Shown here: positions 1 through 6,397 of the stretch, in pieces
Layout of the letters: each line of letters opens with the position of its first letter
Numbering within the stretch: the stretch's first letter is position 1
Assembly (NCBI GenBank): GCA_015491595.1
Contig: WFVP01000374.1
Span: 1 to 8,927 of the forward strand
Origin: Anaerolineales bacterium
GTDB lineage: Bacteria; Chloroflexota; Anaerolineae; Anaerolineales; DRMV01
DNA length: 8,927 nucleotides
Direction: 5' to 3'
The notes under the pieces: model-generated
What the model was told of the DNA's origin: nothing
What the model saw: only the letters and a program-made list of their open reading frames with translations
Database searches by the model: none
Made by a program: the position numbers and the translations under genes

Positions 1-761
1 GCCGCGCGGCCTTCGGCCACCACCGTGCCGTTGATGCGCACCCGGCCTTGGAGTTCCTGCCAGCGGGGAAGGACCTCCCATGCGCTCACCACTTCCGCGG
101 CCATGGCCGTGGCGAAGTTCTTGGCCTTTACCGGGCCGAAGCCCGAACGCATCTCCGCGGCCTGTACGTCTCGGGCGGAGAAGTCGTTGAGCACGAAGAA
201 GCCGCCAATGGCCTCCCGGGCTGCTTCGGGCGTGGCGTTACGCAGGGGTCGGACGATGACGAAGCCCAGCTCCAGTTCGTAGTCCAGGGCCCGGGTGTAG
301 GACGGCCAGGGCACGGTCTCGCCTTCGGTGATGAAGGACAGGGGGTTGCTCATGTAGTAGATGGGCCGTTGGTACCACAGCGCCGAAGGCCGCACCTTGG
401 GGTGGGGTTTCTTGAAGATGGCTTCGTACAGGTTCACCACCCGATAGGCCGTGGGCGCGAAGCGTCGCAGCCAGCCCTTGGTGGCCTGGATGGCGTGCGC
501 TTCAAAGAGCATGAAGTCTCGAAACGTCAGAGGGCGGAAGGGAAGCAGGGGCGTGGGGTCGAAGGGCTCCGGTTCCCGGCCCTGGGCCAGCAGGTCCTGC
601 AACTGGGCCTCCCCTTCGGGACCCTGAGCCAGCAGAGCCACCAGGTCCCGCGCGGCCTCCCCCAGTTCCTCTTCAAAGGCCGTCAGGGGGAACCACTGGT
701 CCTCCCACCACACGGCCACGGCATAAGAACCATCCTGCAGGCGCACCCTTCGGTACCGCAT
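1..761 (-). CDS. Fumarylacetoacetate hydrolase (FAH) family protein, C-terminus cut off by window edge
   Basis: The leftward frame is open from an ATG at 761 to the window edge, giving 253 codons with no stop. The start is supported by a perfect AAGGAGGT ribosome site at 767-774, five bases upstream. An N-terminal domain of about 75 residues is followed by the FAH fold. The segment FRDFMLFEAHA places Asp82 and His89 seven residues apart, like the metal Asp and catalytic His of mammalian FAH. DYELELG (160-166) gives the two metal Glu residues (162, 164), and LNDFSARDVQ (191-200) gives the third-shell Asp193. GPVKAKNF (209-216) supplies Lys residues. Such enzymes cleave C-C bonds in acylpyruvates or hydrate 2-keto-enoates in aromatic catabolism. 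The exact substrate cannot be read from sequence. It lies downstream of the cyclase-family gene on the same strand, separated by a heptad-repeat spacer, so co-transcription is likely. Family assignment is firm; substrate is unknown. Confidence 0.9.
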   Translation of the reverse strand, partial: MRYRRVRLQDGSYAVAVWWEDQWFPLTAFEEELGEAARDLVALLAQGPEGEAQLQDLLAQGREPEPFDPTPLLPFRPLTFRDFMLFEAHAIQATKGWLRRFAPTAYRVVNLYEAIFKKPHPKVRPSALWYQRPIYYMSNPLSFITEGETVPWPSYTRALDYELELGFVIVRPLRNATPEAAREAIGGFFVLNDFSARDVQAAEMRSGFGPVKAKNFATAMAAEVVSAWEVLPRWQELQGRVRINGTVVAEGRA

Positions 762-788
762 CCTCAACCTCCTTCGGGGGAAATGGGA

Positions 789-915
789 GCAGATAGCAGA
801 TGGCAGATGGCAGATGGCAGATGGCAGATGGCGGTTGGTGGTTGGTTAGGTGGCGGAACGTAAATGGTCCGTCGATTCTCCCCAACCTCCCACTATCCGC
901 CATCCGCTCTCCGCC
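789..915 (-). repeat. Heptad-repeat element 1, inverted arms around a core, between cyclase and FAH genes
   Basis: On the plus strand 789-830 holds one GCAGATA and five GCAGATG heptads, then variants GCGGTTG and GTGGTTG to about 851. After a core (852-885) containing AATGGTCC at 863-870, heptads of opposite sense (CTATCCG, CCATCCG, CTCTCCG) run to 915. That is directly against the stop codon of the leftward cyclase gene (916-918). Read in the direction of transcription, the CTGCCAT-type heptads end about 14 bases before the AAGGAGGT of the FAH gene. The two arms are partly complementary and could fold. No protein-coding role is supported. Confidence 0.85.
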
Positions 916-1674
916 TCACTCCAGGATGGCGACCACGCGCGCGGGGCCGGCGCTGGCGCCCTCGATTTTCAGGGGGAACGCAGCCACCTTGAAGCCATGG
1001 GGCGGCAGTTGGTCCAGGTTGACCAGCCGCTCGATTTGGGCGTAGGGCAGGTCCAGTTGGTGCGCGGCCCAGAAGATGCCCGGCTTTCGGGCCTCCAGCG
1101 CGGCCTGGGCCTGGATGTCCAGGGGTGCGTCCCAGCTCCAGGCGTCAATGCCCATGACCCGGATGCCCTGGTCGTAGAGCCAGCGAGTGGCCTCGGGGCT
1201 GACGCCGGGCCCCATGAGGAAGTAGTTGGGATGGTCGTAGAACTTGTCCATCCCGGTGCGCACCAGCACGATGTCCAGGGGCTTGAGGGTGTACCCGATG
1301 CGGTCCAGTTCCTTCTGGATGTCCTCCACGGTGATGACCTGGCCTCGTTCCCGGCCCGTCATGTCCAGTACCACGCCGTCGGCGAAGAACCACTCCAGGG
1401 GAAGTTGGTCGATGGTGGCCGCGGGTTTGCCCTGGATGCGGGAGTTGTAGTGGTAGGGCGCGTCCACGTGGGTGGCGTCATGGGTGCCCAGCCGGGTGAT
1501 GGTCTCCGTGGCCCAGCCCTCACCGTCCTTGAGGAGGTCGCGCGGCACCTTGAAGAAGTGCTCGATTTGGGCCGCGCCTTCTTGATGGCTGTGGTATTGG
1601 ATGTGCACCTGGAAGGGTTCGGGGGTTTCGGGAGGTGTGTTCCGAATGGGAGCCGACAGATCAATGAAACGCAT
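916..1674 (-). CDS. Cyclase-family (PF04199, kynurenine formamidase/isatin hydrolase-like) metal hydrolase
   Basis: This is a 252-residue protein of usual family length. Its signature LGTHDATHVDAPYHY (62-76) carries His65, His69, Asp71 and His75 with the spacing H-x3-H-x-D-x3-H seen in bacterial kynurenine formamidase (KynB), a Zn/Mn-binding site. The C-terminal half keeps GPGVSPEA, GIDAWSWD and a final PLKIEGASAGPARVVAI segment typical of the family. An upstream in-frame start would add 21 residues, but the ATG at 1674 is chosen because GGAGGT (plus 1681-1686) sits six bases before it and the protein then begins MRFIDLSAPI, the normal family start. Members hydrolyse amides, lactams or cyclic esters such as formylkynurenine and isatin. 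The partner FAH-family gene downstream suggests successive hydrolytic steps of one catabolic route; that is inference. A promoter lies at 1709-1737. Confidence 0.9.
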   Translation of the reverse strand: MRFIDLSAPIRNTPPETPEPFQVHIQYHSHQEGAAQIEHFFKVPRDLLKDGEGWATETITRLGTHDATHVDAPYHYNSRIQGKPAATIDQLPLEWFFADGVVLDMTGRERGQVITVEDIQKELDRIGYTLKPLDIVLVRTGMDKFYDHPNYFLMGPGVSPEATRWLYDQGIRVMGIDAWSWDAPLDIQAQAALEARKPGIFWAAHQLDLPYAQIERLVNLDQLPPHGFKVAAFPLKIEGASAGPARVVAILE

Positions 1675-1708
1675 CGTGCCACCTCCGGGAATATGATATG
1701 TTTGCCGC

Positions 1709-1737
1709 ATGATAGCATAGAGGGAAAATGGAGACAA
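1709..1737 (-). promoter_or_regulatory. Sigma-70-type promoter for the cyclase-FAH unit
   Basis: On the minus strand, TTGTCT (plus 1732-1737) is followed after exactly 17 bases by TATCAT (plus 1709-1714). These match the -35 consensus at 4 of 6 and the -10 consensus at 5 of 6. The predicted start near 1702 leaves a leader of roughly 28 bases that contains the GGAGGT site. No other promoter-like pair was seen for this unit. Confidence 0.6.
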
Positions 1738-1799
1738 GGGGTTTCAGAATGAAAAGCCCTGCAGGAGGTTTTCTCAGGTGAGCCCTTCGGGGATTTCGG

Positions 1800-1805
1800 T
1801 ATAAT
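1800..1805 (+). promoter_or_regulatory. -10 box of the tRNA-Leu gene
   Basis: A perfect TATAAT lies 13 bases before the mature 5' end of the tRNA. The expected -35 position (about 1777-1782, GGTGAG) is not consensus, so the promoter rests on the -10 box and its placement alone. Confidence 0.5.
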
Positions 1806-1818
1806 CGTGCAGGAACAT

Positions 1819-1902
1819 GGGCATGTGGCGGAATTGGTAGACGCGCGGGACTTAGGATCCCGTGCCGGCAACGGCGTGAGGGTTCGAGTCCCTCCATGCC
1901 CA
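1819..1902 (+). tRNA. tRNA-Leu (anticodon UAG)
   Basis: This is an 84-base class II tRNA. The acceptor stem GGGCATG (1819-1825) pairs perfectly with CATGCCC (1895-1901), with discriminator A at 1902. The D arm contains GGAATTGGTAGAC. The anticodon stem CGGGA/TCCCG encloses the loop CTTAGGA, giving anticodon TAG, which reads CUA and by wobble other CUN leucine codons. A long variable arm (about TGCCGGCAACGGCG) is followed by a T arm of GAGGG/CCCTC enclosing TTCGAGT. The 3' CCA is not encoded and must be added by CCA transferase. An intrinsic terminator follows 6 bases after the gene. Confidence 0.97.
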
Positions 1903-1908
1903 TGGAAC

Positions 1909-1936
1909 GGGGCGGTCCGTGGACCGTCCCTTTTTT
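1909..1936 (+). terminator. Rho-independent terminator after tRNA-Leu
   Basis: GGGGCGGTCC (1909-1918) pairs with GGACCGTCCC (1921-1930) through one G-U wobble, giving about 9 usable pairs closed by a four-base loop. Six T residues follow (1931-1936). It should end the tRNA transcript and separate it from leuB. Confidence 0.9.
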
Positions 1937-1938
1937 GG

Positions 1939-1944
1939 TATAAC
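1939..1944 (+). promoter_or_regulatory. Possible -10 box for the leuB unit
   Basis: TATAAC starts two bases after the T tract of the terminator and about 45 bases before the leuB start. The matching -35 region falls inside the terminator stem and has no clear consensus. A promoter is needed here if the terminator is efficient, but the evidence is only the -10 match and location. Confidence 0.3.
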
Positions 1945-1949
1945 TGCTT

Positions 1950-1963
1950 CCGTTCGAAAACGG
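1950..1963 (+). other. Small hairpin in the leuB leader
   Basis: CCGTT and AACGG form a perfect 5-bp stem around CGAA. It lies 9 bases before the leuB GGAGG site in the predicted leader. It has no T tract and is too short to call a terminator or riboswitch. It may shape the leader or mean nothing. Confidence 0.35.
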
Positions 1964-1988
1964 CCACGGTTGGAGGAAGGTGTTCCCC

Positions 1989-3074
1989 ATGGAGGCGCGA
2001 CTGGTTCTTCTTCCCGGCGATGGCATTGGCCCGGAGGTCATCGGGGCCGCGGCTGCGGTGCTCAGGGCCGTGGCGCGACGTTTCGGGCACGTCTTTCACC
2101 TGGAGGAGTACCCCATCGGAGGGACGGCCATCGAGGCCACGGGGGAACCCCTGCCCCCGGACACCCTCCAGGCCTGCCTGGAGGCCGATGCCGTGCTCCT
2201 GGGCGCGGTGGGGGACCCTAAATGGGACCGGCCCGACCTGCCCGTGCGACCGGAGCAGGGTCTGCTGGCCCTGCGGAAGGCCATGGGGGTGTACGCCAAC
2301 CTCCGGCCGGTCAGGGTGTTCCCGGCTCTGGTGCACGCTTCCCCCTTGAAGCCCGAAATCGTTCGGGGAACGGACTTCGTGGTGGTGCGGGAACTCACGG
2401 GCGGCCTGTACTTCGGACCCCGCCAGGAGCCCAGGGAAGGACGGGCTTACGACACCATGGTCTACACCGAAGCCGAAATCCGTCGGGTGGCCCGCGTGGC
2501 CGCGCGGCTGGCCCTGAAGCGCGGGCGCCATCTGGTGAGCGTGGACAAGGCCAACGTCCTGGCTTCCTCCCGGCTGTGGCGTCAGGTGGTCCAGCAGGTG
2601 GTGGACGAGGAATTCCCCCAGGTGACCCTGGAGCACATGCTGGTGGATGCTGCGGCCATGCATCTGCTGCGCCGTCCCACCACCTTTGACGTCCTCGTGA
2701 CGGCCAACATGTTCGGGGACATTCTGACGGACGAAGCCGCGGCCCTGGCGGGCTCTCTGGGGATGCTGCCCAGCGCCTCGTTGGGGGAAACCCACAACCG
2801 TCATGGGTTCCCCAGGGGCTTATACGAACCCGTCCACGGCTCCGCACCCGACATCGCGGGACAGGGCATCGCCAACCCCCTTGGGGCCATCCTGAGCGCC
2901 GCATTGCTCCTGCGCCACTCCCTGGGTCTGGAGGAGGAGGCGCGCGCGGTGGAGGAGGCCGTGGAACGGGTGCTGGAACAGGGCTACCGCACCGTGGACC
3001 TGGCCGTAGAAGAGGAACCCGTGGGCACGCGGGAGATGACCCGCGCGGTGGAAAAGGCTCTGACGCAGAGTTGA
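1989..3074 (+). CDS. leuB: 3-isopropylmalate dehydrogenase
   Basis: The 361-residue enzyme oxidises and decarboxylates 3-isopropylmalate to 2-oxoisocaproate with NAD+ in leucine synthesis (cytosolic dimer, Mg2+). Family marks in order are [10 protein letters not shown] (7-16), [10 protein letters not shown] (71-80) and substrate arginines in [15 protein letters not shown] (R96, R106). Next come [10 protein letters not shown] with R134 and Y141, VDKANVL with K187, Asp220, and [12 protein letters not shown] with D244 and D248. The adenosine-loop segment [18 protein letters not shown] follows. The leucine-type VGDPKWD and [10 protein letters not shown] argue for LeuB over homoisocitrate dehydrogenase. 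ATG 1989 is preferred over GTG 1980 because GGAGG at 1972-1976 lies 12 bases before the ATG but only 3 before the GTG, and family proteins start here. Residues 266-276 form an unusually long loop encoded by a palindrome. The other leu genes are not in this window. A heptad array starts right after the stop. Confidence 0.95.
2784..2813 (+). repeat. Palindrome inside leuB
   Basis: GGGGAAACCCA (2784-2794) and TGGGTTCCCC (2804-2813) form a 10-bp stem with one bulged A and a 9-base loop. It is in frame and encodes the stretch from GETHNRH to about FP, which corresponds to a loop longer than in the LeuB proteins I know. Confidence 0.6.
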
Positions 3075-3151
3075 CCGCGGACCGCAGTCCGCCGACGGCC
3101 AACGACCAACGGCTATCTGCCATCTGCCATCTGCCATCTGCTATCTGCCAA
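3075..3151 (+). repeat. Heptad-repeat array 2 between leuB and argC/lysY
   Basis: Exactly eleven consecutive 7-base units fill the gap from the base after the leuB stop to the argC ribosome site AAGGAGGT (3152-3159). The last six units are CGGCTAT, three CTGCCAT, CTGCTAT and CTGCCAA. The first five drift to CCGCGGA, CCGCAGT, CCGCCGA, CGGCCAA and CGACCAA but keep the 7-base phase. Bases 3077-3092 can also form a 6-bp hairpin. Unlike the other two elements this one has a single arm. Confidence 0.85.
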
Positions 3152-3162
3152 AAGGAGGTCAC

Positions 3163-4194
3163 ATGATTCGGGCATCCATCGTGGGCGCTTCGGGCTACAC
3201 CGGCGGCGAGTTGTTGCGTCTTTTGCTGGACCATCCCCAGGTAGAGGTCCACCAGGTGACCTCGCGACGGTATGCCGGGTACTACGTCTACCAGGTTCAC
3301 CCCAATCTGAGGAAGCGGACCCGACTCAAGTTCGTCCATCCCGACGCGCTGGAGCCCGTGGACGTGCTCTTCCTCGCCCTGCCCCATGGGGAAGCCCAGA
3401 AGCACATCGAGCATTGGGCCTCCCTGGCCACGTACCTCATCGACCTCTCGGCGGACTTTCGCCTCAAGGACCCCGACCTGTACCAGCGCTGGTATGGCGA
3501 ACCCCACCGGGCACCGGAATGGCTCTCCCGGTTCGTCTACGGTTTGCCGGAATTGCATCGGGAAGAACTGCGTCAGGCCCGCTATGTGAGCGGGGTGGGA
3601 TGCAACGCCACGGCCACCATCCTGGCCATCTGGCCCGCGGTGCGCGCGGGGTTGGTGGACCTGGAACGGGGGCTCATCGGTGAAATCAAGGTGGGGTCTT
3701 CCGAAGGCGGCGCGGACCCCAACCCCGGCTCTCATCACCCCGAACGGGCAGGCATCGTGCGCACCTACGCGCCCATCGGGCACCGCCACACCGCGGAAGT
3801 CATCCAGGAACTGGGCGTGACGGACGTCTACCTCACCATGACCTCGGTAGACCTGATTCGGGGGGCCATGGCCACGGTCCATGCCTGGGTCCGGCCGGGC
3901 GTGACGGAGAAGGACTTGTGGAAGGCCTACCGCGCGGCGGTGCAGGAGAACCCCTTCCTGCGGCTGGTCAAGGAACGGCGGGGGATTCACCGGGTGCCCG
4001 ACCCCAAGATTCTGGCCGGGTCCAACTACGCGGACCTGGGTTTCGCCCTGGATGAGGCCTCCGGCCACCTGGTCGCCATGTGCGCCATCGACAACCTGAT
4101 GAAGGGCGCGGCCGGGTCCGCGGTGCAGGCCATGAACCTCATGCTGGGCTTCGACGAGACCGAGGGCCTGACCTTCCCCGGATTGCACCCTTGA
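3163..4194 (+). CDS. N-acetyl-gamma-glutamyl-phosphate reductase family; probably LysY-type [LysW]-aminoadipate/glutamate phosphate reductase
   Basis: The 343-residue NADPH-dependent reductase belongs to the ArgC family, which turns an acyl phosphate into a semialdehyde in arginine or lysine synthesis. It has the Rossmann start VGASGYTGGELLR (7-19), SADFRLKDP (96-104) and the catalytic cysteine in GVGCNATAT (Cys147). It also has HHPERAG (191-197), GHRHTAE with the active-site His208, and AIDNLMKGAAGSAVQA near the end. Standard ArgC usually has GCYPT around the cysteine. The GCNAT, SRRYAG and HHPERAG forms and the ending FPGLHP match my recollection of Thermus LysY, which acts on substrates held by the carrier LysW. 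The ATG follows AAGGAGGT by three bases. Its stop lies 8 bases before hisA, so the two are tightly coupled. The ArgC family is certain; LysY subtype is likely, not proven, so no symbol is given. Confidence 0.9.
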   Translation: MIRASIVGASGYTGGELLRLLLDHPQVEVHQVTSRRYAGYYVYQVHPNLRKRTRLKFVHPDALEPVDVLFLALPHGEAQKHIEHWASLATYLIDLSADFRLKDPDLYQRWYGEPHRAPEWLSRFVYGLPELHREELRQARYVSGVGCNATATILAIWPAVRAGLVDLERGLIGEIKVGSSEGGADPNPGSHHPERAGIVRTYAPIGHRHTAEVIQELGVTDVYLTMTSVDLIRGAMATVHAWVRPGVTEKDLWKAYRAAVQENPFLRLVKERRGIHRVPDPKILAGSNYADLGFALDEASGHLVAMCAIDNLMKGAAGSAVQAMNLMLGFDETEGLTFPGLHP

Positions 4195-4202
4195 GGGAAG
4201 CC

Positions 4203-4958
4203 ATGGGTGTGTTGTTCGACGTCTACCCGGCGATTGACCTTCGCCACGGTCGGGTGGTGCGGTTGATGCAAGGGGACCCGGAGCGGGAGACGGCCTATGC
4301 CTCGGACCCGCGGGAGGTCGCCCGGCGGTGGCTGGAGGCCGGCGCCCGCTGGTTGCACGTGGTGAACCTGGACGCCGCGCTGGGCGAGGACGACGCGGCC
4401 AATCGGGCCTGGCTCCCGGCCCTGCTGGACCTGACGGCCCGATACGGCGCGCGCCTCCAGTGGGGCGGCGGTGTGCGCACGTATGAGGCCCTGGACAACC
4501 TGCTGCGCCTGGGGGTGCATCGGGTCATGGTGGGGAGCATGGCCCTGAAGCGCCCCCTGGACCTGAGCCGTGGCCTGGATACCTGGGGTTCGGCCCGCAT
4601 CGTGCTGAGCCTGGACGCCCGCGGCGGCAGGGTGCGCATCGCGGGATGGCGAGAGGAAACGGAGGTCTCCCCCCTGGACCTGGCCGAATTCTGGAACGAC
4701 CGGGGGATTCGTTTCTTCCTGTACACCGACGTGGCCCGGGACGGCACATTGCAGGGCCCCGATGTGGACACGGCCACGGCCATCGCGCGGCGGACCCGGG
4801 CCCACGTGCTGCTGGCGGGCGGCGTCAGTCGCCTGGAACACGTCCGCCAGGCCCGGGACGCCGGCCTGGCCGGGGTGGTCATCGGCCGGGCCCTCTACGA
4901 GGGCACCCTCCGGCTGACCGACGCCCTGCGCATCGCGAGAGGAGCAGATGGCGGATAG
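4203..4958 (+). CDS. hisA: Phosphoribosylformimino-AICAR-phosphate isomerase (ProFAR isomerase)
   Basis: The 251-residue (beta/alpha)8 barrel catalyses the Amadori rearrangement of ProFAR to PRFAR, the fourth step of histidine synthesis. Seen are PAIDLRHGRVVRLMQGD (9-25) with catalytic Asp12, WGGGVRT (87-93), VMVGSMAL (108-115) and LSLDARGG (135-142). YTDVARDGTLQGPD (174-187), LLAGGVS (203-209) and IGRALYEG (227-234) follow, covering both phosphate-binding halves. The open frame extends up to 4080, but that part overlaps argC. ATG 4203 gives the normal N-terminus, with GAGGG at 4193-4197 overlapping the argC stop, which suggests translational coupling. The last codons (Ala-Asp-Gly-Gly) and the TAG stop are made of the first two units of heptad element 3. 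The tail is therefore repeat-derived and only slightly longer than normal. No other his genes are in the window. HisA from a His-Trp dual PriA cannot be fully excluded. Confidence 0.94.
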   Translation: MGVLFDVYPAIDLRHGRVVRLMQGDPERETAYASDPREVARRWLEAGARWLHVVNLDAALGEDDAANRAWLPALLDLTARYGARLQWGGGVRTYEALDNLLRLGVHRVMVGSMALKRPLDLSRGLDTWGSARIVLSLDARGGRVRIAGWREETEVSPLDLAEFWNDRGIRFFLYTDVARDGTLQGPDVDTATAIARRTRAHVLLAGGVSRLEHVRQARDAGLAGVVIGRALYEGTLRLTDALRIARGADGG

Positions 4959-5070
4959 CGGATAGCAGTTGGCAGATGGTGGATAACAGAGAATGGTCCC
5001 CTATCCGCCATCCGCTATCTCTGCTATCTGCCAACTGCCAACTGCCAACTGCCAACTGCCATCTGCTATC
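4944..5070 (+). repeat. Heptad-repeat element 3, inverted arms around a core, between hisA and FAD oxidoreductase
   Basis: The left arm (4944-4985) reads GCAGATG, GCGGATA twice, GCAGTTG, GCAGATG and GTGGATA. The core contains AATGGTCC (4992-4999). The right arm (5001-5070) runs in the opposite sense: CTATCCG, CCATCCG, a two-base phase slip near 5020, TGCTATC, four TGCCAAC, TGCCATC and TGCTATC. Bases 4944-4958 are complementary to 5001-5015 at 14 of 15 positions, so a large hairpin is possible. The left arm overlaps the end of hisA and supplies its stop; the right arm ends 9 bases before the AGGAGG of the next gene. Confidence 0.88.
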
Positions 5071-5092
5071 TTCCCCTCCAGGAGGAACCTCC

Positions 5093-6397
5093 ATGCCTCA
5101 TGTGGCCATCATCGGCGCCGGATTCACCGGACTGGCCGCGGCCTACCGGCTGCGCCGGGCAGGCTGGCAGGTCACGGTCTACGAAGCCCGGGACAGGGCC
5201 GGGGGGCTGGCCGGGGGATTCCGGGACGACCGCTGGGACTGGTCCCTGGAATACTTCTACCACCACTGGTTCGCCTCGGACCGGCACATCCTGGGGTGGT
5301 TGAAGGAACTGGGCTTGCGGCACAGGGTACGCTTCCCCCGGCCCCTCACGGTGGTCTATCACCGCGGCCGGTTCTATCCCTTCGACTCGCCCCTCGCGCT
5401 GCTGCGCTTTCCGGGCCTGACCTGGCCGGACAAAATCCGCCTGGGCCTGGTGACGGCCTACCTGCGCCTCACGCCCCGGTGGCAATCCCTGGAGGGCAAG
5501 ACGGCCCACGAGTGGCTGCAGCGGGCCCTGGGCACCCGGGCCTACCGGGCCCTGTGGGAACCCCTGCTGGAAGGGAAGTTCGGCCCCTACTACCGGCAGG
5601 TGAACATGGCCTGGTTCTGGGCCCGCATCCACGCGCGCACCCCCCGGCTGGGGACGTACGAGGGCGGCTTCCAGGCCCTGGCCGACCAGTTGGTGGACCG
5701 CCTGCGGGCCCAGGGCGTGACCTTCCGCTTCCGCACCCGGGTGGAGCGGGTGTCCCCCCACGAGGGCCGGGGATGGACGGTGCGCACCACGACGGACGAG
5801 GCCCGGTACGACCGGGTTCTGGTCACCCTGGGGCCGCCCCAGGTGGCCCGCCTGGTCCCGGCCCTTCCCGAAGACGCGCGGCGGAAATGGGCCCAGGACC
5901 TGCCCTACCTGGGCGCGGTGACCCTGGTGCTGGCCCTGGACCGGGTCTTCAACCCCCAGGGCTTCTACTGGTACAACATCCCCAAGCGAGAGGGCTTCCC
6001 CTTCCTGATTCTGGTGGAACACACCCACTTCGTACCGCCCCGGCACTTCGGCGGCGACCACATCCTGTACGTGGGGGATTACGTGCCCCCGGACCATCCC
6101 TATCTCACCATGGAGCCCCAGGCCCTGCTGGAGCACTTCCTGCCGGGCCTGCGCCGGGTGCGCCCGGATTTCGACCTCGCGTGGGTGCGGCGGTTCTGGT
6201 GCTTCCGCACCGCTTACGCCCAGCCCGTGCCCCTGCTGCACCATTCCCGCCGCCTGCCGCCCACCCGCCTCCTCCCGGGCCTGTACTGGGCCTCCATGAG
6301 CCACGTCTACCCCTGGGACCGGGGCACCAACTACGCGGTGGAACTGGGCTTCCGGGTGGCGGGGGAGATGATGAACGATGCTATTATCTCATCATGA
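5093..6397 (+). CDS. FAD-dependent oxidoreductase, amine oxidase/protoporphyrinogen oxidase-like fold
   Basis: This 434-residue flavoprotein opens with the dinucleotide motif AIIGAGFTGLAAAYRL (G8, G10, G13), then VYEARDRAGGLAG with Glu31 for the FAD ribose and the R-x-G-G element at 35-38. The C-terminus has GLYWASMSHVYPWDRGTNYAVELG, the second FAD-contact region of the amine-oxidase superfamily, in which the chain folds back onto the flavin. The middle (LLEGKFGPYYRQVNMAWFWARI; YEGGFQALADQLVDRL) resembles uncharacterised relatives that often sit with glycan or isoprenoid genes. No membrane segment or signal peptide is evident. The start has AGGAGG at 5080-5085, seven bases upstream. The substrate is unknown: desaturation or oxidation of a lipid, carotenoid, porphyrin or sugar nucleotide is possible. 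It follows hisA across heptad element 3 and precedes the glpA-like unit by 63 bases, and nothing nearby fixes its role. Confidence 0.8.
   Translation: MPHVAIIGAGFTGLAAAYRLRRAGWQVTVYEARDRAGGLAGGFRDDRWDWSLEYFYHHWFASDRHILGWLKELGLRHRVRFPRPLTVVYHRGRFYPFDSPLALLRFPGLTWPDKIRLGLVTAYLRLTPRWQSLEGKTAHEWLQRALGTRAYRALWEPLLEGKFGPYYRQVNMAWFWARIHARTPRLGTYEGGFQALADQLVDRLRAQGVTFRFRTRVERVSPHEGRGWTVRTTTDEARYDRVLVTLGPPQVARLVPALPEDARRKWAQDLPYLGAVTLVLALDRVFNPQGFYWYNIPKREGFPFLILVEHTHFVPPRHFGGDHILYVGDYVPPDHPYLTMEPQALLEHFLPGLRRVRPDFDLAWVRRFWCFRTAYAQPVPLLHHSRRLPPTRLLPGLYWASMSHVYPWDRGTNYAVELGFRVAGEMMNDAIISS
6368..6395. promoter_or_regulatory. Inverted repeat upstream of the glpA-like operon
   Basis: ATGATGA (6368-6374) and TCATCAT (6389-6395) are perfect inverted copies separated by 14 bases. 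They overlap the last codons of the FAD oxidoreductase and lie just upstream of a TATACT box. The layout could be an operator, but two copies of a 7-mer of low complexity could also arise by coding chance. Confidence 0.25.

Follow-up and report, generated by a model that had tools for sequence, protein, structure and literature searches.

Gene-edge-anchored heptad and octad arrays with an outward G-rich strand in the intergenic gaps of an Anaerolineales genus

The gaps between genes in a genus of Anaerolineales bacteria contain tandem arrays of seven- or eight-base units, which are mostly anchored at the gene boundaries and whose G-rich strand usually faces away from the gene, whatever the word that makes up the array. 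Their length changes mostly by whole units, one and the same gap may be filled or empty or hold differing words in different genomes, and the two arms found in some gaps vary independently within genomes. The favored explanation, which we give about an even chance of being correct, is that these are spacer arrays made by slippage at gene edges, confined and oriented by selection, with the G-rich strand mostly directed away from the gene. They are likely the product of repeated copying slips under selection, rather than a dedicated genetic switch.

The window, i.e., the whole stretch of 8,927 nucleotides that was analyzed, has heptad arrays in three gaps (789-914, 3107-3148, and 4944-5073; Table 1), as a preliminary description of this DNA had indicated, and CTGCCAT-type units lie ahead of all three downstream genes, the genes around array 1 being on the minus strand. 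The same description had every array starting at, or inside, the end of the upstream gene, which is true of array 1, which (in the gene direction) begins 1 nt past the cyclase stop and finishes 27 nt ahead of the FAH start, and of array 3, which begins 15 nt ahead of where the hisA stop codon ends and finishes 19 nt short of the FAD gene. It does not apply to the strict units of array 2, which begin 32 nt past the leuB stop and finish 14 nt ahead of argC; by word-free detection, this array extends back to the leuB stop. Degenerate CCAACGA/CCAACGG units are found directly upstream of the 3107..3148 arm. Arrays 1 and 3 have an additional mirror arm adjoining the upstream gene, while array 2 is a single arm, and no terminator-like site (a hairpin followed by a T run) was found inside the three arrays. 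The array-free codirectional junctions of the window are all short (8, 42, and 19 nt, and one overlap), including a further one of approximately 40 nt ahead of the final gene, which is uncalled, and the remaining gap with no array is the divergent tRNA gap.

Table 1. Genes and repeat arms at the three array-bearing junctions of the window.
Feature	Position	Strand	Description
FAA_hydrolase-family gene	1..761	-	Downstream of array 1; truncated at window edge; Pfam PF01557
Array 1, long arm	789..844	+	GCAGATG-type heptads on the plus strand, i.e., CTGCCAT-type toward the start of the minus-strand FAH-family gene
Array 1, short arm	894..914	-	Next to the stop codon of the cyclase gene; the minus strand is the G-rich one
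Cyclase-family gene	916..1674	-	Upstream of array 1; Pfam PF04199
leuB-type gene	1980..3074	+	Upstream of array 2; Pfam PF00180
Array 2, single arm	3107..3148	-	leuB/argC gap; CTGCCAT-type on the coding strand
argC-type gene	3163..4194	+	Downstream of array 2; Pfam PF01118, PF22698
hisA-type gene	4203..4958	+	Upstream of array 3; Pfam PF00977
Array 3, left arm	4944..4985	+	Includes the final hisA codons, with the stop codon
Array 3, right arm	5002..5073	-	Units 5002-5015 and 5018-5073; stops short of the Shine-Dalgarno of the FAD gene
FAD oxidoreductase gene	5093..6397	+	Downstream of array 3; Pfam PF01593

The 14-base double unit GCRGWTRGCRGWTR had 29 matches in the 2.08 Mb of its own genome, and the same pattern read backwards had none. 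The contig of the window accounts for 21 of these matches, and the other eight, two of which fall inside called genes, are spread over five contigs. A probe bearing an array matched seven contigs of this genome through its array part, and an array was present in none of the 30 gaps of a small sample of unselected contigs (98 kb). Among 61 relatives, the word had 353 matches in 22 genomes, and the backwards control 44 matches in 16. In four draft genomes of the genus (G000 to G003), 1.08 Mb of stretches yielded 100 arrays of period 7 or 8 with a score of at least 12, in 87 of 548 gaps, and 84 of these arrays are of period 7. These loci combine stretches chosen by their hits (66 arrays) with unselected sequence of G002 (34 arrays), where 27 of 315 gaps have an array at a score of 12 and where word-free detection at a score of at least 8 found arrays in 38 of 324 gaps, versus two of 324 after shuffling. 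The genes were called by a purpose-made codon-score caller with a pooled gene model, not a standard program. Seven-base tandem units are concentrated between genes, with 49 strict-word arms being intergenic, five inside genes, and three at edges. The flanking genes are of mixed function, and some arrays follow stop codons or sit in convergent gaps.

Taking an array to touch a stop at up to 25 nt and a start at up to 45 nt, definitions which bound the distance ranges, outward arrays at a single boundary begin a median of 2 nt after a stop (range 0-12, n=25) or end a median of 16 nt before a start (range 7-26, n=14). At the stop side, 17 of 55 proximal arrays begin at least 7 nt ahead of where the stop codon ends, and two of 76 extend past a start. 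The G-rich strand is outward rather than inward in a ratio of 25:4 at stops and 14:1 at starts (14:2 and 5:1 in unselected G002 alone), in contrast with array-free control gaps, where the ratios are 117:114 and 143:95 once low-skew segments (86 stop, 109 start) are excluded. Heptads (15:4 at stops, 12:0 at starts) and octads (10:0 and 2:1) were also counted separately. Altogether, the 100 arrays comprise 39 outward and five inward at a single boundary, 41 that span a codirectional gap from stop to start, of which 36 are C-rich and five G-rich on the coding strand, two in symmetric gaps, eight that touch neither boundary, and five of low skew. These tests exclude gaps of less than 30 or more than 400 nt and duplicate gap sequences; one version of the orientation counts excludes zero-skew arrays and another the arrays (5/100) in which G minus C is less than 3. 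The counts given are unsplit, as any division of an array at its skew peak could only raise the number of outward pieces. A midpoint test of the strict word placed 43 of 49 genus arms outward and six inward.

The fixed intercistronic register of the preliminary description thus recurs in the genus loci examined, where the arrays are neither random in position and orientation nor as frequent within genes as between them. Orientation in the Acidobacteria and other named loci is biased by their recruitment with a two-arm pattern of one orientation, and this applies to the 46 outward and 16 inward Acidobacteria arms of the midpoint test (15 more in genes and 10 at edges), to the very few single arms (three outward, two inward), and to the gap-spanning arrays, which are C-rich in none of four cases and G-rich in all four. 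In 301 genomes of the phylum, the outward two-arm pattern was found at eight places and the inverse at one, which are small counts, with the inverse pattern being matched in four of the genomes.

The gap above argC contains four different arrays in four genomes of genus g5, two of these arrays having low scores (9.5 and 8.5), and the upstream protein there is 97% identical to that of G007. The argC-hisA gap contains an 83-nt array in G002 and is only 8 nt long in G000 and G001, so that a role in operon spacing, as proposed earlier, loses ground, given that a sister gap may do without the array. Five gaps that hold an array in G002 are 16-91 nt long and array-free in G003, and such differences between species, with array-free states of 8-91 nt, occur even between ribosomal-protein genes. 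In an alignment of G000 with G001 over 5.2 kb, each of the seven gap openings falls inside an array and 54 of the 55 mismatches fall elsewhere, with net length changes of -14, +27, -14, and -14 nt, all of whole units except for the 27-nt change, which is not a multiple of 7. A single conserved motif was rejected, since other words and octads occupy orthologous gaps, and the unrelated words also argue against protein binding to the word, another role raised in the preliminary description. Word profiles are slightly more similar within genomes than between them (0.229 vs 0.189; 2/500 shuffles), in loci that were partly selected.

One alternative is that each pair of arrays functions as an RNA hairpin between cistrons, similar to REP/BIME elements, which protects or processes the operon mRNA. 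It was prompted by array 3, with a predicted fold of -77.3 kcal/mol (z -8.3), although arrays 1 and 2 reach z values of only -1.9 and -1.0, and it agrees with the two-armed strict-word arrays of the genus, which are of the GCRG...CYGC kind in 7/7 cases. In 47 pooled elements from other taxa, own arms were the better match, at 0.799 against 0.605 for swapped ones (0/300 shuffles), though this swapping mixes genomes and words. Within one lineage, however, own arms are no more complementary than swapped ones (0.857 vs 0.872 in 38 Acidobacteria elements, 0.656 vs 0.629 in seven genus elements), with no compensatory pairing between arms in either set, and the lengths of the two arms are uncorrelated. 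Heptad arms are paired with octad arms in some gaps, many arrays have a single arm, and no array had an Rfam match at its gathering score. Given the independence of the arms within lineages, this reading was rejected as very unlikely, as was the folding role suggested by the preliminary description, since arms do not covary within genomes and their lengths change independently between G000 and G001. That the C-rich arm before a start is a translational enhancer or a regulator binding site, as for the TAACTGA repeats, would fit the C-rich coding strand of the gap-spanning genus arrays and the available part of the account of one Beggiatoaceae genome, where most of 170 TAACTGA sets face a start codon and there is one inverted repeat (PMC4679880). 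Even so, it is unlikely, given that orthologous genes have differing words or gaps with no array, that arrays also occur after stops and in convergent gaps beside genes of mixed function, and that the Acidobacteria spanning arrays are G-rich. As for the role in translation start that was suggested earlier, flipping a start-proximal C-rich array lowers the predicted openness of the ribosome site from 0.489 to 0.414, and natural arrays exceed flipped ones in 34 of 45 cases (p 2.6e-4), so that an effect is predicted, but only a modest one; against one shuffle each, natural arrays were more open in 30 of 45 (p 0.053), which is marginal.

The remaining alternatives invoke dedicated machinery. If the two 3' ends of a broken gap, situated at the gene edges, each gained a G-rich word and were then joined, the arms would read outward and be independent, which is consistent with the strand rule at stops and starts, the arm independence, the hybrid arms of different periods, and the outward two-arm pattern in the phylum. 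Nevertheless, these two-arm counts are small, no gradient of unit uniformity was seen from the gene edge toward the distal end of the array in the gap middle, and the data indicate no enzyme, making this reading quite unlikely. Ku was found in 0/14 genomes, as was reverse transcriptase (RVT_1), and both Ku end joining and reverse-transcriptase tailing were rejected on this basis. In a broader form, which we consider equally improbable, gene edges would act as DNA ends in many prokaryotic phyla, and a repair independent of Ku and reverse transcriptase would leave telomere-like outward caps; if so, the repair of broken gaps would rewrite intergenic DNA in single events, capping both genes. Spread of a mobile miniature element by a transposase, on the other hand, would account for the presence or absence of arrays at orthologous gaps and the slightly closer word profiles within genomes. 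This is extremely unlikely, however, as neither fixed termini nor a shared core was seen and one word can take the place of another at a given site. With regard to the terminal inverted repeats of a MITE-like element, mirror arms exist and vary independently. The IS200/RAYT-type family searched (Y1_Tnp) matched nine of 14 genomes, with one weak partial match in G001 and none in the incomplete genomes G000, G002, and G003, and RAYT was rejected because G002 and G003 are the genus genomes with the most copies of the word.

Under the favored slippage-and-selection explanation, DNA-polymerase slippage and the repair of non-essential spacer DNA would likely make, lengthen, and replace the arrays, a generator proposed because no dedicated enzyme emerged among the three families searched. 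Selection would then likely remove both the arrays that enter a gene and those that place their G-rich strand ahead of a start, with growth presumably being limited by the space from the last needed codon to the Shine-Dalgarno, and access to the ribosome site probably acting as the strand filter at starts. Given the opposite strand bias of the spanning arrays in the genus and in Acidobacteria, this filter may not be general across taxa. Several observations run counter to the explanation: a combination of slippage and selection at the ribosome site gives no reason to expect the outward strand at stops, the total change of words between close relatives is quicker than slippage in old arrays easily yields, and the gaps with two arms in mirror orientation, whether or not these share a word, are unaccounted for by slippage. 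The merely marginal gain in openness over shuffled start-side arrays, the 27-nt length change, and the lack of a uniformity gradient between the gene and the gap middle also count against it.

REP/BIME palindromes are intergenic and form hairpins, as two-armed arrays of the genus can, although the units here are tandem words of 7-8 bases and the RAYT-type domain was unmatched in three of the four genomes. Long simple sequence repeats in bacteria were reportedly addressed by Mrazek in 2007. In the literature examined here, as far as its available parts extend, the excess of heptads in bacterial genomes has no accepted cause. The heptamer satellites of bacteria, such as (GATAGRA)n in Chloroflexus aurantiacus, share the excess seven-base period, and gene-edge anchoring and a strand rule are absent from the accessible part of their description (PMC6749651). 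A close likeness, in the available sections of the source, is with the intergenic heptads GGGAATC and GGGGA(C/T)T of Xanthomonas and Nostoc, which form G-quadruplexes, are G-rich mostly on the coding strand after stops and the non-coding strand before starts, overlap some stop codons, are under-represented in divergent gaps, and differ in length and sequence between close relatives (PMC4692102). The genus arrays share these seven-base intergenic units, the G-rich strand near its 5' neighboring gene, the stop overlap, the variation between relatives, and the scarcity in divergent gaps. Unlike those heptads, as far as they are described there, they include octads that obey the stop rule, two-armed gaps, and wholly different words in relatives. 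As outward placement is already published for those heptads, the genus arrays are a broader, quadruplex-independent variant: GCRGWTR units give at most GG, unit joins included, although another G002 word, GCAGTGG, does produce GGG at the unit join. That the strand rule extends to words with no G runs speaks against both regulators specific to one word and an explanation by quadruplexes alone. Should the process be general, bacteria would gain new intergenic spacer DNA from it, between ribosomal-protein genes as well. The pairs of close relatives with a filled and an empty gap make the birth of an array directly testable.

The TAACTGA repeats of Beggiatoaceae, Cyanobacteria, and Bacteroidetes, for which a regulator binding site has been proposed, are also found within ribosomal-protein operons and differ by 7-nt indels in a pair of closely related Cyanothece strains, according to the available part of the report (PMC4679880). 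They consist there of one nearly fixed, mostly start-side word, whereas the words of the genus arrays vary between and within genomes and occur at stops too, though the start-touching arrays share the forward orientation. In a Microcystis sample from that part of the report, only six of 22 intergenic sets are forward to a start, so that the strand rule fails in this sample (PMC4679880). TAACTGA, as given there, is one base apart from the reverse complement of the genus word GCAGTTA.

The preliminary description placed heptad arrays in three gaps of the window, namely cyclase/FAH (array 1), leuB/argC (array 2) and hisA/FAD oxidoreductase (array 3), and all three were found there, with the families of the flanking genes confirmed by Pfam. 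In the window's own genome (G000), a 2.08 Mb draft of 450 contigs that is 81% complete, the double unit GCRGWTRGCRGWTR has 29 matches, 21 of them in the window's contig (C374); read backwards, the pattern has 0. A word-free detector of period 7 or 8 found, at score 12, no arrays among the 30 gaps of 20 unselected contigs of this genome, and the window is therefore an array-rich portion of it. Arrays 1 and 3 are two-armed: in the direction of the genes, the arm next to the upstream gene consists of GCRGWTR units and the arm next to the downstream gene of YAWCYGC units.

An 18-base word pattern recurs in 22 of 61 relatives (353 matches), including all four draft genomes of the genus (G000-G003), compared with 44 matches in 16 of the 61 for its backwards control. 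The word-free detection was run on stretches from these four genomes, and in 48 unselected stretches of G002 it located arrays in 38 of 324 gaps, against 2 of 324 shuffled gaps (25-400 nt, score of at least 8), comprising 31 of 247 codirectional, 4 of 41 convergent and 3 of 36 divergent gaps. At score 12, 100 arrays (84 of period 7 and 16 of period 8, with a median length of 59 nt) occupy 87 of the 548 gaps in all the genus loci, and 27 of 315 gaps in unselected G002 bear arrays. Given that some arrays or array-bearing matches sit at contig ends (L353, which is contig C354 of G000; contig C204 of G003), the arrays may interrupt these draft assemblies and thus be undercounted.

The arrays that touch a single gene boundary and are outward, with the G-rich strand reading away from the gene, begin 0-12 nt past the stop codon (median 2, n=25) or end 7-26 nt ahead of the start codon (median 16, n=14). 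Of the 100 genus arrays, 8 touch neither boundary, and 17 of 55 stop-proximal arrays begin at least 7 nt ahead of the end of the stop codon, while 2 of 76 overrun a start codon; the placement between stop codon and ribosome site, proposed for the window, is thus general within the loci examined.

Coordinates of in-gene arrays, nine-base repeats and the tRNA gene of the window
Locus	Position	Feature
L097	6727-6775	Heptad array within a long called gene
L103	8964-9033	Heptad array within a long called gene
L118	6095-6122	Heptad array within a long called gene
L148	1365	Nine-base mirror-armed repeat
L214	620	Nine-base mirror-armed repeat
L171	13413	Nine-base mirror-armed repeat
L177	1422	Nine-base mirror-armed repeat
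Window	1819-1930	tRNA gene in divergent gap, then terminator-like hairpin (9 pairs and T run)

The in-gene arrays, from three genus genomes, have similar flanks and are read through, with the G-rich units on the coding strand. The nine-base repeats, from G002 and G007, are CACGGAGAA-like and CAGATTACG-like and have a comparable layout. The hairpin at the tRNA gene is the longest of four terminator-like sites within 700-5200 of the window.

When a side is scored as outward if the strand reading away from the gene has G > C, the arrays in the genus loci that touch only a stop are outward in 25 cases and inward in 4, and those that touch only a start in 14 and 1, respectively (14:2 and 5:1 in unselected G002). 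The array-free control gaps gave 117:114 at stops and 143:95 at starts, so the strand rule at stops is not a general base-composition trait of gene ends. Octads are outward in 10:0 cases at stops and in 2:1 at starts, which are too few, and the arrays spanning a codirectional gap are C-rich rather than G-rich on the coding strand by 36:5. By gap midpoint, 43 of 49 strict-word (GCRGWTR-type) arms are outward, as are 46:16 in Acidobacteria chosen through the two-arm pattern, and a split test in another genus (g5), with different words, gave 4:0 at stops and 5:0 at starts. One inward case, L217, adjoins a small opposite-strand gene that was read from the sequence and is absent from the gene calls.

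The arrays differ in length and presence between relatives. Across 5.2 kb aligned between G000 and G001, all 7 gap openings fall inside arrays and 54 of 55 mismatches outside them, and in array 1 one arm is longer where the other is shorter, on either side of an identical centre. In G000 and G001 the argC-hisA gap measures 8 nt, whereas G002 has an 83-nt array there (L350), which reaches the start codon, with no Shine-Dalgarno visible. Five array gaps on one G002 contig are array-free in G003 (33, 16, 91, 43 and 38 nt), the G002 counterpart of the last including a stretch that resembles a mis-called start. That contig encodes the ribosomal proteins L3, L4, S3, L16, S8, L6, S5, L15-type and L13, with arrays in the L3/L4, S3/L16 and S8/L6 gaps, which means that essential genes tolerate an array between them.

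A single conserved motif was rejected, given that orthologous gaps above argC bear different words (GCAGATG heptads in G000 and G001, GCSGTTR heptads and octads in G002). Four other arrays occupy the gap above argC in G007, G010, G012 and G016 of genus g5 (upstream protein 97% identical to that of G007), those of G007 and G012 with low detector scores. In several gaps the two arms differ in period, one being a heptad and the other an octad array. A functional hairpin would find support in the predicted fold of array 3 (z -8.3), although this strength is about what words common to both arms would yield, and in 47 elements pooled from many taxa, whose arms match better than swapped arms, a result that word differences between genomes would equally produce. 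Within lineages (38 Acidobacteria and 7 genus elements), arms swapped between elements mirror each other at least as well as natural pairs do, the length of one arm does not correlate with that of the other, and the hairpin was rejected on this lack of mutual matching. On the start side, the predicted openness of the ribosome site fell from 0.489 to 0.414 when the natural C-rich array was reversed (a drop in 34 of 45, p 2.6e-4), the decrease was marginal when the array was shuffled (30 of 45, p 0.053), and 6 of 52 start-proximal arrays are G-rich; selection on predicted access to the ribosome site is a plausible filter there. The stop-side rule is explained by none of the tests run.

As for the generator, neither Ku nor RVT_1 was found in 14 genomes, which are incomplete, so that absence is not proof, and Y1_Tnp, matched in 9 of the 14, had one weak match in G001 and none in the incomplete G000, G002 and G003. 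Given these results, ordinary polymerase slippage with repair synthesis would be the least demanding means by which the arrays could be made.

Full-text searching yielded two close precedents. One concerns Xanthomonas and Nostoc, where G-rich heptads sit near the 5' neighbouring gene in any gene direction, on the coding strand past stops and the non-coding strand ahead of starts (PMC4692102); the Xanthomonas strand rule is the same as here, whereas the present words differ and are mostly non-quadruplex. The other describes TAACTGA repeats oriented mostly toward start codons in one Beggiatoaceae genome, also within ribosomal-protein operons, with no such preference in a Microcystis sample (6/22 forward; PMC4679880). 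The search found no paper that unites these cases, nor one on word replacement at orthologous gaps.

Finally, across the phylum (301 genomes), the two-arm pattern in its outward form occurs at 8 places in 5 genomes and in the inverse form at 1, with overlapping matches counted once; the backwards control of the inverse form matched in 4 genomes. In the window's orientation, the two-arm pattern occurs in at least 114 stretches of named genomes, and the 80 matches listed include Acidobacteria, Planctomycetota, Bacteroidales, Gammaproteobacteria, Patescibacteria, Gemmatimonadota, Rickettsiales, Chloroflexi, Prevotella, Akkermansia, Pantoea latae and a Methanoregulaceae archaeon; 31 of the 80 were inspected, and a few may be chance matches in coding DNA. 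One Acidobacteria gp7 genome (QHVT01 records, L221-L294) accounts for 34 of the 80, and these 34 records entered the Acidobacteria analysis. The Pantoea latae stretch (L289) carries approximately 16 consecutive GCAGTTG units close to its beginning.
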